A DNA stretch of 64,000 nt from Solibacillus sp. FSL R7-0668 (GTDB lineage Bacteria > Bacillota > Bacilli > Bacillales_A > Planococcaceae), in the NCBI RefSeq assembly GCF_038006205.1, contig NZ_JBBOUU010000001.1, positions 2,420,001 through 2,484,000 on the forward strand, written 5' to 3'. The notes beneath the pieces are model-generated. The model worked only from the letters and a program-made list of their open reading frames with translations. It was not told the origin of the DNA and ran no database searches. Below, in pieces: positions 33,364 to 37,806 of this stretch. Made by a program: the position numbers and the translations under genes. Every line of letters begins with the position of its first letter. Position 1 is the first letter of the stretch.

Positions 33364-34362
33364 TTATTGGGCGTGAAATCGTTTAAATGCCGTTTGTTTA
33401 CGCTCTTCGCTTATTTGTGCGTATCGCGCTGTAGTGTCGGCTTTTTCATGGCCCATCAGCGCTTGCAAATCAGCTAGTTCCATACCATTATCCAAACTCA
33501 ACTGAGCAAATGTGTGACGCATTATATGCGGGTGCAGTGGCTTTTCAATATTAGCAGCTATCCGAATCTTTTTTATTTGATATTGTATTCCCTCATTGGT
33601 TAGCCTTCGAATCGGATGCCTTTGACTTACTATTAACGCTGGGCAATCATCAGTACGTTCTTTCAAGTACTTTCTTAAATAATACTTTGCCTTTTCGCTT
33701 AAGTAAACGCGCCTTTCTTTGCTACCTTTCCCGAATACGATTACACTTCCAGACTGCCAATCTATATCTTTAATATCTAATTTGCGCAATTCATCCAAGC
33801 GACAACCTGTGCTATAAAACACTTCTATCAAAGCTCTTTGCCGTGCATTTTTACACGCTGCACGGACCTTTTCTAGCTCTATTATGGTTAACCCTTCGCG
33901 TACCTTTTTCTCGGTTTTCGGGCGTTTAATTTTCAAACATGGATTTTTTAGAAGCTCCTCTTCTTTAACTAACCACCCATAAAAGCTTGATAAGATGTCC
34001 ATTTTTGTCACTATGGTACTTGTTTTCAAATGACTATGCACCGATAAATATGCCCTAATATCTGCCGTGGTTGCCTGTAACAAGTTTTTATTCAAATAAT
34101 TTTTAAAACGATCCAGCTCATATCGATAATTTTTAAGTGTATGGGCTGAATAATTTTCAATTTGCAATGAGCTTATAAACATGTGTACGTAGTCTGTATT
34201 ATCGTTTTTAATCATTTCACTGTCTTTTGCTTCGATTTTGTAATTCGATAATAAGTCGTCTAAATAAAGTGCTAATTTAATTGGGTCATATTCAGCAGCT
34301 GCAACCATTTTTACAGTTGTTTCAATTTCATTTATTAAATGTAATTTACTCATGTTTTTCAC
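33364..34362 (-). CDS. int: Tyrosine recombinase integrase
   Basis: 332 residues. SAM-like core-binding domain (about 65-150) and catalytic domain (165-330) with the Arg in STGCRLDELR (about 208), HxxR in HPHIMRHTFA (about 295), GHEKADTT and the nucleophile Tyr in ARYAQI (about 320). It recombines phage attP with the comGC attB, about 460 bp away. Orientation is the same as the structural genes. Confidence 0.95.
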   Translation of the reverse strand: MKNMSKLHLINEIETTVKMVAAAEYDPIKLALYLDDLLSNYKIEAKDSEMIKNDNTDYVHMFISSLQIENYSAHTLKNYRYELDRFKNYLNKNLLQATTADIRAYLSVHSHLKTSTIVTKMDILSSFYGWLVKEEELLKNPCLKIKRPKTEKKVREGLTIIELEKVRAACKNARQRALIEVFYSTGCRLDELRKLDIKDIDWQSGSVIVFGKGSKERRVYLSEKAKYYLRKYLKERTDDCPALIVSQRHPIRRLTNEGIQYQIKKIRIAANIEKPLHPHIMRHTFAQLSLDNGMELADLQALMGHEKADTTARYAQISEERKQTAFKRFHAQ

Positions 34363-35189: not shown

Positions 35190-35205
35190 TTGCTTAAAAC
35201 AAAAT

Positions 35206-35240
35206 AAACCTTCCACCAATTTTAATAGTGGAAGGCTTTA
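35206..35240 (+). terminator. Intrinsic terminator of the XRE gene
   Basis: AAACCTTCCAC (35206-35216) pairs with GTGGAAGGCTTT (35228-35239), weak T tract. Confidence 0.75.
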
Positions 35241-35269
35241 ATTCTGACTATACACGATGACTATTCCCC

Positions 35270-35578
35270 TTAATTCATTCTCCCTCTGACAAACTCAGAT
35301 AATTTCAAAGGATTTTTTATTTGATCATAAAATTCTTTCGCCAGCTCTAAATTCGGAAACGCTTCAACGATGGCACTATTTTCGATGGCTTCTCTGAATT
35401 TCGTGAAGTCTGTTATACCGTCAAAATCAATATGCGCGTATACAATGCACACGTCATAATTACTTTTATCGAGACTGATGTTAATGAGTGTGGTGCCATT
35501 AACATCCGAATCCAATGTAACAGCTTCAAATTCTACTTCATCACCAAGTACCCATTTTTCCGTTTCAATTTTAATCAT
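35270..35578 (-). CDS. Hypothetical phage accessory protein
   Basis: 102 residues from ATG 35578 (GGAGGTGGAAAT upstream). Acidic, with alternating beta strands (VEFEAVTLDSDVNGTTLINIS) and a C-terminal helix pair. No family recognised. Lies beside the CRISPR-repeat-like RNAs, in a stretch of small accessory genes between integrase and lysis module. Confidence 0.7.
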   Translation of the reverse strand: MIKIETEKWVLGDEVEFEAVTLDSDVNGTTLINISLDKSNYDVCIVYAHIDFDGITDFTKFREAIENSAIVEAFPNLELAKEFYDQIKNPLKLSEFVRGRMN

Positions 35579-35679
35579 ATTTCCACCTCCTGTTAACATT
35601 AAATTACAATAATTAACTTCACATGTAAATAGAATGTGCGAAACTGTCTATTTGGGCATGTATTCGACAATTCGACAAA

Positions 35680-35770
35680 ATAAAAAAGCCACCCAATGAT
35701 GAGTGACTTTTTCGTACATAATAAAAACGGTTTTTCAATCCACATCCCCACTGTTGAGAATGACATTAAC
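35680..35770 (-). ncRNA. Solitary type I-C-like CRISPR repeat transcript, unit B
   Basis: Predicted start at 35770. The repeat (35730-35764) reads GTC, stem ATTCTC, loop AACAGT, stem GGGGAT, then GTGGATTGAAAAAC: the type I-C plan of 5' GTC, hairpin and 3' GTGGATTGAAA, with two extra A. After 17 nt it ends in a terminator with a 12-bp stem (35683-35694 with 35701-35712) and T-run. About 90 nt in all. No array, no cas genes nearby. Similar layout to phage RNA anti-CRISPRs. Confidence 0.7.
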
Positions 35771-35776
35771 GATTAC

Positions 35777-35824
35777 ATTATACCAAATTACCATATTGCT
35801 GCCACTATTTTTGTGTGATATATT
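35777..35824. promoter_or_regulatory. Back-to-back promoters of the two repeat RNAs
   Basis: Plus: TTGCTG (35796-35801), 17 bp, TATATT (35819-35824), placing +1 at 35831, the first base of repeat A. Minus: GTGGCA (35800-35805), 17 bp, TATAAT (35777-35782), placing +1 at 35770. The two -35 boxes overlap by two bases. Confidence 0.7.
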
Positions 35825-35830
35825 AAAAGT

Positions 35831-35926
35831 GTCGCGAGAGCGTGGATTGAAACATATTATAGAGTATGCGTAATTGCATGACTACACAAAAAACCCACCA
35901 GGTATTAGCTTGGTGGGTTTTTGTTT
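35831..35926 (+). ncRNA. Solitary type I-C-like CRISPR repeat transcript, unit A
   Basis: The predicted first base starts a 23-nt repeat (35831-35853): GTC, mini-hairpin GCGAGAGC (GAGA tetraloop), then GTGGATTGAAAC, the canonical 3' part of a type I-C repeat. A 37-nt spacer-length segment follows (35854-35890), then a terminator stem AAACCCACCA/TGGTGGGTTT (35891-35900 with 35911-35920) and T-run. About 95 nt. It would look like a crRNA to host Cas proteins, so a decoy or RNA-guided regulator is likely. Confidence 0.72.
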
Positions 35927-36426
35927 TACTCATCTTGCTTCGCGAATTTGTTGCGCTGTACGCTCATGTAATAAGTGTACATATCCGATAAGGTAACGTT
36001 ATATGCAATGTCCACATCAATAGTTGCTATACGTTCACCGATTTCGTCGATGTAGTACATAACATCATTTAGTTTATGTGAATATTGCGGTTCCAATGCG
36101 ATTTTGTGAAGATATTCAAATACTTTAAAAGGCTCGCGTTTTAATTTTTGGTACAGGTTATAATTACCTTGTAAGCGCTGGCGATCATTGTCTAGTTTAA
36201 AAATCAGCATATCCACTAAAGCAATAGCCTCGGACAGATTACGCTCGACCATGTCGTAATACCAAGCTAGTTTTTCGGCTGTTTTAAGTTGGATTGCTTC
36301 AATTTTTGCTTCTCCTGACCAAATGCGTACAACTGTATTGTTAGGTATACCTGTTATTTTAGAGATGCGGTGAGCCACCGCACCCCACTCTATTAATTTT
36401 TGAATTTTTTCTGATGTAGTTAACAT
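35926..36426 (-). CDS. HTH-containing phage accessory protein
   Basis: 166 residues from ATG 36426 (TAGGAGGAAAATTA upstream). N-terminal helix-turn-helix (KLIEWGAVAHRISKITGIPNNTVVRIWSG cut to about residues 8-36) followed by a long helical region. Second gene of a two-gene operon with two palindromic operators at the promoter, so it may be the repressor of its own operon, as Aca proteins are for acr genes. That comparison is inference; it is longer than typical Aca proteins. Confidence 0.65.
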   Translation of the reverse strand: MLTTSEKIQKLIEWGAVAHRISKITGIPNNTVVRIWSGEAKIEAIQLKTAEKLAWYYDMVERNLSEAIALVDMLIFKLDNDRQRLQGNYNLYQKLKREPFKVFEYLHKIALEPQYSHKLNDVMYYIDEIGERIATIDVDIAYNVTLSDMYTYYMSVQRNKFAKQDE

Positions 36427-36437
36427 TAATTTTCCTC

Positions 36438-36959
36438 CTATTTGTTCGCTTGGCAATCGCCGTAGCAAAATTCACCACAGTGTTTGCAACGTAATGTTTC
36501 TTCTTTTTTCGCTGGCACCACAGTCTTTTCTAACGGACCAAAAACTTCTAGAGAAATTACTTCCGGCATTTCGATTTCAATTTTGCATTTTTTGCCCTTA
36601 AACTCGACTACACCCATACTTAACTTGTGTTCTTTGTACTTGCGATTTGTGTTCCAAGTACTGATTGATTCGCCGTTAAGTACTACTGATTCGATTTTTA
36701 AACCGTTTTCGATTGTTTCTACTAAATCGTCCATTGCGTTGCGAGTTTGTACTGCGCGAGACGTAGAATAAGTCATTTCAACTTGAGCGCCTTTTGATGT
36801 TGTCCATGATTTTACGATTGTATTTACCATTGCTTTGCTCTCCTCCCATGCGATTGAAAGAGATGAAGCTAAGTATTCGCGTACTTTACCGCCGAATTTT
36901 TTTACCCCTTGTTTAGCCAACGTCCAAGCACGTTTCATAATTTCCTTCATCATTTTCAA
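36438..36959 (-). CDS. Phage accessory protein with C-terminal zinc motif
   Basis: 173 residues. N-terminal amphipathic helices (1-45), a central mixed domain (70-150) and a C-terminal Cys cluster CKHCGEFCYGDC that may bind zinc. Start after AAGGGGCGATTGAAA. First gene of the operon with 35926-36426, 11 bases apart. No family recognised. Strong, operator-controlled promoter and location beside CRISPR-repeat RNAs make a counter-defence role worth testing. Confidence 0.65.
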   Translation of the reverse strand: MKMMKEIMKRAWTLAKQGVKKFGGKVREYLASSLSIAWEESKAMVNTIVKSWTTSKGAQVEMTYSTSRAVQTRNAMDDLVETIENGLKIESVVLNGESISTWNTNRKYKEHKLSMGVVEFKGKKCKIEIEMPEVISLEVFGPLEKTVVPAKKEETLRCKHCGEFCYGDCQANK

Positions 36960-36977
36960 TCGCCCCTTTTATTTTAT

Positions 36978-37033
36978 AACCGTTAGCGGTTACTTGATAA
37001 CTTTATTATATAACCGCCAACGGTTAATGTAAA
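36978..37033 (-). promoter_or_regulatory. Promoter with two AACCG-N4-CGGTT operators
   Basis: Minus strand: TTTACA (37028-37033), 17-bp spacer, TATAAT (37005-37010). One 14-bp palindrome (37012-37025) fills the spacer, the other (36978-36991) lies just after the start of transcription; centres are 34 bp apart. A repressor bound to both would block the polymerase. Confidence 0.75.
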
Positions 37034-37074
37034 GAGGTTTGATAAAATATTTTTAATTATTTTTATGTAAACGC

Positions 37075-37119
37075 AAAAAAGCCCGCCACTACTGCGATTA
37101 AACAGTAATGACGGGCTTT
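37075..37119 (-). terminator. Intrinsic terminator of the lysis module
   Basis: AAAGCCCGTCATTACTG pairs with CAGTAGTGGCGGGCTTT (minus strand), followed by six T in total. Confidence 0.88.
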
Positions 37120-37131
37120 AAATTTGAAACT

Positions 37132-37806
37132 TTATCTATTAACCATATTATGAATCATCACAATAACTTCCTCACGAGTAGCTGGGCGCTTTAAATACGT
37201 ACCATCCGATACGCCATTCGCTTTTGCCCATTCAACCGCTTCCTTTGCCCACGCTGCTGGTGCTGCATCTTTTTCGTAAGCTTCTTTTGCTATTGGTGTT
37301 TCCTCCTTATCACTTTTTAATTTATTCAAAGCATCTTGTATTCGTTGTTTAAATGAACCCCATCGTTTCTCATCTCGAATACGGTGAGGGCAATTTTTCT
37401 TGCTCCATTCATAATGCTGCTTTACGCGATCAATACCCCATCCATATTGATGAAGTAATTTAGCGATATATTGCACCGCATTTTCTTCCGCCGCTACGTA
37501 CCGACTTCCACCACTTTTACTGTAGCAAATTTCGATACCAATTGATTTGCGGTTGCCATCACCTTGTCCATCGCCACAATGCCAGGCATTACGGTCAAAT
37601 GGGATACACTGAATAGCCTCTTTGTCATCAATAGCCACATGATACGATACCTGGTTGTCATTGCGATTATGATATGCAGCCTCGTTAGCAGCAGAAGCAT
37701 CATTCGCCGTATTGTGGACCGTAATATATTGCGGTGTCATTGCGTATGGACATTTAATTTTGTGCTTGTTAGCAGGCAACAAAACTCGTTTGAATGTGTA
37801 ACTCAA
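37132..37806 (-). CDS. Endolysin, N-acetylmuramoyl-L-alanine amidase
   Basis: 224 residues. Amidase_2 domain (about 20-150) with the zinc ligands in ITVHNTA (His31 region), His in NAWHCGDG and the NCPHRI motif. The C-terminal part (about 175-224, AAPAAWAKEAVEWAKANGVSDG) is a single SLH-like cell-wall-binding unit. Cuts the bond between muramic acid and the stem peptide to release virions. Overlaps the holin gene by 4 bases. Confidence 0.93.
   Translation of the reverse strand: MSYTFKRVLLPANKHKIKCPYAMTPQYITVHNTANDASAANEAAYHNRNDNQVSYHVAIDDKEAIQCIPFDRNAWHCGDGQGDGNRKSIGIEICYSKSGGSRYVAAEENAVQYIAKLLHQYGWGIDRVKQHYEWSKKNCPHRIRDEKRWGSFKQRIQDALNKLKSDKEETPIAKEAYEKDAAPAAWAKEAVEWAKANGVSDGTYLKRPATREEVIVMIHNMVNR

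Follow-up and report, generated by a model that had tools for sequence, protein, structure and literature searches.

Two short divergent units inside a prophage, RNA A on the forward and RNA B on the reverse strand (35682-35922), probably form a counter-CRISPR module: both would be crRNA-like RNAs working through the type I-C Cas proteins of the host, with RNA B mimicking the autorepressor of the host's own system. Positions are those of the window, the whole stretch of 64,000 nt that was analysed (G000:C1:2420001-2484000), which belongs to a host genome, G000, of 4.2 Mb in 7 contigs.

The prophage and its two units

The pair lies between the integrase gene (33364-34362) and the endolysin gene (37132-37806) of the prophage. 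This element appears to split a competence gene, which we take to be comGC-like, whose later part is found at ~32896 of the window and whose start is found at L017 10293; as the two parts are ~41 kb apart, the insert would measure ~41 kb. No tRNA genes were found in the 64,000-nt window. The pair is ~850 kb from the CRISPR arrays of the host, in a mobile element, outside the arrays and away from cas. A small ORF adjoining RNA B (35270-35599, reverse strand) codes for 109 amino acids, or 102 from an inner ATG, and has no Pfam or PHROG match; its position makes it a candidate anti-CRISPR protein. A fold predicted from the single sequence of the 102-aa version (mean pLDDT 53.4) was too poor for a structure search. 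The two proteins flanking the pair have no relatives in viral_contigs, and the one of 168 amino acids gave one weak match in phages and four weak N-terminal matches in the 260 other genomes of the family.

Repeat A, GTCGCGAGAGCGTGGATTGAAAC (35831-35853, forward strand), and repeat B, GTCATTCTCAACAGTGGGGATGTGGATTGAAAA (35764-35732, reverse strand), are present where the original prediction had placed them, which confirms the observation. Repeat B is close to the repeat of host array 1, from which it keeps both stem arms save for one base, a C to T change that still allows pairing with G, and differs in the loop; its hairpin is present in the minimum-energy fold of RNA B. The promoter of RNA B (35777..35805, reverse strand) consists of GTGGCA (35805-35800), 17 nt and TATAAT (35782-35777), and in a promoter scan reached 10/12 consensus matches with a TG before the -10 box. 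After the repeat comes a guide starting ACCGTTTTTATTATGT, whose first 16 nt occupy 35716..35731 (reverse strand), and the terminator scan placed a terminator at 35713-35682 (reverse strand), giving a predicted RNA of ~89 nt.

Repeat A has a shrunken hairpin with a GAGA loop (CGC-GAGA-GCG), as had been described, and this 3-bp hairpin is absent from the minimum-energy fold of RNA A. In its plan, repeat A resembles the CreR-like host units of relatives (see below) rather than array repeats. Its last base is C in the window and T in a second copy on contig C4, the bases in which the repeats of arrays 1 and 2 end. The putative promoter (35796..35824, forward strand), TTGCTG (35796-35801), 17 nt and TATATT (35819-35824), with a TG at 35816-35817 making an extended -10 by eye, is weak: its 8/12 consensus matches were counted by eye and it falls under the scan threshold, being absent from the scan list. 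Its -35 box overlaps that of B by 2 bp; among the features claimed originally, the overlap and the promoter of B are upheld and the promoter of A is recognised by eye below the threshold of the scan. The guide of A, a segment of 36 nt after the repeat (35854..35889, forward strand), leads to a terminator (35889-35922, forward strand; terminator scan), for a predicted RNA of ~93 nt; both units end at a terminator, as proposed. The reverse strand of this guide contains TAGTCA-17-TATAAT (10/12 in the promoter scan), a resemblance to a promoter, such as a promoter-aimed guide might have, that is suggestive only.

The 1.5-kb stretch around the pair contains 4 terminator-like sites, versus a mean of 0.9 in shuffled sequences, and 12 promoter-like sites versus 6.4. 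The distribution of GTGGATTGAAA indicates that the pair is no chance resemblance. Exact copies occur 114 times in the genome, 107 of them in the two arrays; the 7 outside are 3 stray chromosomal places (L001-L003) and 4 that belong to two copies of the pair. The second copy of the divergent pair is located on C4, a phage-like contig of the same genome, and the guides of A and B are unchanged between both copies. Since ~340 bp around B are identical in the two phages, this identity may only reflect a recent common origin. In 13 other members of the genus, only 2 (L230, L247) of 52 isolated GTGGATTGAAA places, a count that leaves out 6 more in G012, allow a weak hairpin.

Relatives of the pair were found neither in viral_contigs nor in other genomes of the family. 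The stretch 35200-37100 has no DNA relatives in phages, exact repeat A does not occur in viral_contigs, and Rfam gave 6 matches with E up to 1, none at gathering score. Compared with 101 related genomes, the 291-bp region showed, besides G000, partial matches of 34-55 bp in 4 genomes, corresponding to an array repeat (L022) and to the terminator region of B (L019-L021).

The host type I-C system and the guides of the two RNAs

The original statement that no array or cas genes are present is correct for the window and incorrect for the genome, which codes for a type I-C system with open frames for Cas3, Cas5c, Cas8c, Cas7c, Cas4c, Cas1c and Cas2c. These frames are situated between array 1, with 33 repeats (GTCATTCCCTGTATTGGGGATGTGGATTGAAAC), and array 2, with 74 repeats, of which 66 are GTCTCTCCCAACATAGGGAGAGTGGATTGAAAT and 8 have one base changed. 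The finding of this locus, with a repeat close to B, removes one of the circumstances named beforehand as fatal to the prediction, that the host clade might have no matching type I-C system.

All 107 spacers of the two arrays were compared with the window, with C4 and with 16 kb outside the window. TTC is the PAM of type I-C systems, and spacer 3 of array 1 (a1_3) has a TTC-flanked protospacer in the integrase gene of the window phage (33826..33857, forward strand), where its first 15 bases match perfectly and mismatches lie at positions 16, 22, 24, 28 and 31. Spacers a2_20 and a2_27 match the integrase gene of C4 with 2 mismatches and that of the window with 6, with TTT before them, and a2_30 matches C4 with TTC and 7 mismatches; a control with reversed spacers gave nothing below 8 mismatches. 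Array 2 (L013) contains two near-identical spacer pairs, 14/17 and 20/27, the second being the one that matches the phage integrase genes. Spacers against both phages would make an inhibitor useful, even if interference may be weak anyway, and the phages may survive without one, because these matches have 5-7 mismatches or a TTT PAM. With a matching system and phage-matching spacers in the host, the counter-CRISPR role first proposed for the pair is supported in general, and for A it is this general reading alone that stands.

Upstream of cas3, the host carries a unit of its own (L012 2495-2553) made of GTC, a 7-bp stem (ATAACAA/TTGTTAT), a 14-nt loop and GTGGTTTTAAAA; its tail, GTGGTTTTAAA, has 2 changes. 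Its guide, ACTGTCTTTATTATGT, starts 57 nt downstream of a site, TTC ACTGTATTTATAATGT (L012 2478-2496), from which it differs at positions 6 and 12 only, in 16. A degenerate repeat and guide beside cas, with a PAM-flanked site there, are the features of a CreR element, and this unit shows them. This unit runs in the sense direction and shares a strand with its site, which sets it apart from most relatives, and the folding of its RNA is no better than that of shuffled sequences (z -0.38).

The guide of B with TTC has one outstanding match in the DNA scanned, and it is this same site, with mismatches at positions 3, 6 and 12 of its first 16 nt. In type I complexes, every sixth base of the guide (6, 12) is flipped out, which leaves the mismatch at position 3 as the only one expected to matter. 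The guides of B and of the host unit are identical at 14/16 positions, both matching one site. As good a match was reached by 1/3000 shuffled B guides over the 11.3-kb type I-C locus, by 0/5000 over the 980 nt before cas3, and by 1/200 when 31 type I-C loci were taken together. Apart from this site, G000 has no sequence within one mismatch of TTCACYGTNTTTATNATGT, a pattern whose Y was chosen after seeing the site and which still covers all one-mismatch matches with positions 6 and 12 free. Places within one mismatch of it occur somewhere in 43/261 genomes of the family, so it is not specific to CRISPR loci. Exact matches to it exist elsewhere in G009, G037, G233 and G234, and no repeat was seen at G009 (neighbouring ORFs inspected) or at G037 and G234 (60 nt on each side). 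For B, whose guide matches the same site as that of the host CreR-like unit, the role of a Cas-recruiting RNA foreseen in the original prediction is supported.

A promoter-like TTGACA-17-TATTCT ends 12 nt before the site of B, and we regard it as a guess because the scan gave 8 promoter-like sites against 6.8 in shuffled sequences. Between the host CreR-like unit and cas3 (start 3176) lies an IS3-like transposase remnant (L012 2716-3000), and a second promoter-like site (L012 2986-3014) is found between the site of B and cas3. As both intervene, cas3 may have a promoter out of reach of this site; the remnant with its promoter-like site may have rewired cas3 expression.

Matches to cas3 at E <= 1e-50 occur in 40/261 genomes of the family, with 30 places taken as loci; a Cas3 pattern scan of genome_contigs gave 44 stretches, none of them confirmed. 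Short-hairpin solitary repeats were detected at 20 places in 19/261 genomes: repeat A of the phages accounts for 2 and candidate host units for 11, one (L076) lies among array repeats and 6 (L062, L066, L069, L070, L073 and L075) were set aside, having no cas neighbour and being judged unrelated by eye only. We tested 16 units, namely the 11 short-hairpin candidates and 5 others including the host's own, excluding three array-like units of L051 and L029/L030, duplicates of L071/L067; for each, the TTC-flanked site retained was the one within 520 nt that had the fewest mismatches when all 16 positions were counted, with no masking. A nearby site with <=4 mismatches was found for 13 of the 16, located 57-108 nt before the guide in 10 cases and 104-152 nt after it in 3, and of the 32 mismatches in these 13 units, 12 fall at position 6 and 10 at position 12. 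A fourteenth unit, L061, has mismatches at 6, 12, 14, 15 and 16, and L067 and L033 have no good TTC-flanked site within 520 nt. In shuffle controls made for 11 of the 16 units, 7 gave 0/3000, and L061, L065, L063 and L067 gave 5, 13, 16 and 1966 out of 3000, respectively. A first scan for duplicate sites had yielded a match in L037, which was due to chance, and another in L049. Based on the site matches and shuffle controls, we conclude that the type I-C systems of this family carry CreR-like guides, mostly with short hairpins in relatives, and that A shares the short-hairpin plan. By analogy with CreR, these units would repress cas. This CreR-like family comprises 11 loci among L061-L079, plus L028, L043, L051 and L052.

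The spacer-length segment of A, which the original prediction had suggested searching in phage and host genomes, yielded no target, either in the DNA of G000 scanned or in the 31 type I-C loci. Its match to the type I-C locus is at chance level (310/1000 shuffles as good), and in its own genome the guide has 51 matches with <=3 mismatches, including its own two copies, versus 4 for its pattern read backwards. Matches with <=1 mismatch are present in 92/261 family genomes, none beside known cas3 places as judged by eye; exact matches in genome_contigs correspond to 32 loci (<=8 kb), in which neither homologues of six Cas proteins nor repeat tails were found. At these stringencies and in these genomes, A has no guide match to a cas promoter of the kind that defines CreR; TTCATATTNTAGAGNATG before cas genes is the type of site that would give A its target.

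Known systems and alternative explanations

The closest known elements on the phage side are Racrs (RacrIC1, RacrIF1), which the available text of PMC10651486 describes as solitary prophage repeats with their own promoter and a subtype matching the host; Racrs, including RacrIC1, inhibit CRISPR, the solitary repeats serving as decoys. The pair shares these traits: solitary repeats in a mobile element, a repeat (B) resembling the host subtype, and promoters shortly upstream, that of B by scan and that of A by eye (8/12 with extended -10). Both RNAs might then be ordinary Racr decoys capturing Cas proteins into dead complexes, with meaningless sequence after the repeat, as would fit A, for which no target was found. 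We nevertheless consider this rather unlikely, since the guide of B matches the host CreR site as only 1/3000 and 0/5000 shuffles do. By contrast with Racrs as depicted in that text, B has, in addition to its repeat, a guide matching a site upstream of host cas genes, and here there are two divergent units with separate promoters and terminators. The discussion of the same paper mentions that repeat-like sequences can mediate Cas-dependent transcriptional repression (PMC10651486).

On the host side, CreR is reported for types I-B, I-E and V-A in the available text of PMC13131331, and for type I and V-A in that of PMC12737573; the host units found here are type I-C. Like B, CreR elements in these descriptions combine a repeat with a guide that partially matches a PAM-flanked site upstream of cas, the match being mostly outside positions 6 and 12 (PMC12737573, PMC13131331). 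B follows this plan at the presumed cas promoter, with its TTC-flanked site and mismatches at 3, 6 and 12. CreR is a host element beside cas, whereas B is encoded ~850 kb from there, in a prophage on whose behalf it would act in trans; because of this location, we do not file B as a CreR, although it would work like one.

Virus-borne mini-arrays against rival viruses are known, according to the available text of PMC11656645, for archaeal viruses, whose repeat-guide units rely, as those of the pair would, on host Cas proteins; the match found here is to host cas DNA and not to a rival virus. That A and B aim host Cascade at rival phages is very unlikely: the 23-nt pattern of A's guide has no match in viral_contigs (such collections cover part of phage diversity), A's guide has chance-level matches only in phages and plasmids, and B's guide with the terminator gave one weak match (E 0.08). 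Two viral contigs do carry longer series. A search of viral contigs with the short-hairpin repeat pattern gave 82 stretches, of which 80 were scanned, most looking like coding sequence by eye, and two contain promoter-led series of repeats. L103 (IMGVR_UViG_3300050645_000051, ~6054-5870, reverse strand) has four different type I-C-like repeats in tandem, with spacers of ~18-32 nt; a TTGACA..TATAAT promoter precedes them, from which transcription would be expected to start at the first repeat, and the series may be a multi-guide cassette of similar style to the pair. In L124 (IMGVR_UViG_3300028024_000183, ~8900-8740, reverse strand), three different type I-C-like repeats follow what looks like a strong promoter, and the first of them has a short hairpin. 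For the 7 guides of L103 and L124, TTC-flanked sites with <3 effective mismatches are absent from the type I-C loci scanned, as are sites with <4 from their own loci. Three patterns for CreR-like guides retrieved 8, 0 and 3 viral_contigs, with a GTGG repeat tail before the match in 0/11, and these viral-contig pattern searches revealed no second phage lineage with a cas-promoter guide.

The units could also be relics, captured fragments of host CRISPR or CreR DNA devoid of present function, an idea compatible with their divergent sequences, the weak promoter of A and the seed mismatch of B. It seems highly improbable given that promoter, repeat and terminator are kept by both units in both phages, though the copies are recent. 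Finally, the CreA RNA of CreTA/CrePA is likewise a crRNA-like RNA that would turn Cascade into a repressor, and the two small RNAs with their overlapping divergent promoters recall such a pair, in which one RNA would be a toxin repressed by the other via Cascade, making the host dependent on the element or on Cas; this is extremely unlikely, as both RNAs are repeat-guide units resembling no toxin gene, no such gene was found, and for both guides the window, the opposite promoter included, has no near match flanked by TTC or TTT through which a partner gene could be repressed.

Proposed mode of action and significance

Our preferred explanation is that B is a phage version of the CreR-like RNA with which the host would autorepress its Cas proteins. 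Repeat B, so similar to that of array 1, would be bound and cut by Cas5c in the same way and, with Cas7c, Cascade would be directed by the guide of B to the site with TTC that lies upstream of cas3 and is also matched by the host CreR-like guide. As in CreR, pairing that is only partial would halt transcription without causing degradation and would keep Cas levels low, to the benefit of the phage. Against this mimicry speaks the seed mismatch at position 3. RNA A would most likely tie up Cas proteins as a decoy or, alternatively, might be aimed by its guide at a cas promoter in a host outside the present sample.

When Cascade is occupied by anti-CRISPRs or by many crRNAs, CreR allows the host to increase its Cas levels, as stated in the available text of PMC12737573. 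The two RNAs together could counter this response, the derepression of cas that follows when free Cascade is lost. In more general terms, we suggest tentatively, and with somewhat less confidence than we have in the module itself, that temperate phages copy a CreR-like address to shut the cas operon, pairing it with a decoy to block the rebound of host Cas proteins. We found no description of a phage-borne guide to a host cas promoter in the openly accessible literature, bioRxiv preprints being outside this scope.

If true, this would be a third RNA-based counter-CRISPR strategy, beside decoys and viral mini-arrays. A phage-supplied guide for the CreR switch would close the escape route of the host with one short RNA. 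The sequence after the solitary repeat of a phage would become readable, by comparison with the cas promoters of its hosts. The host side deserves attention independently of the phage: a single bacterial family would have a set of CreR-like units of type I-C systems in which positions 6 and 12 give a clean guide-target signature.
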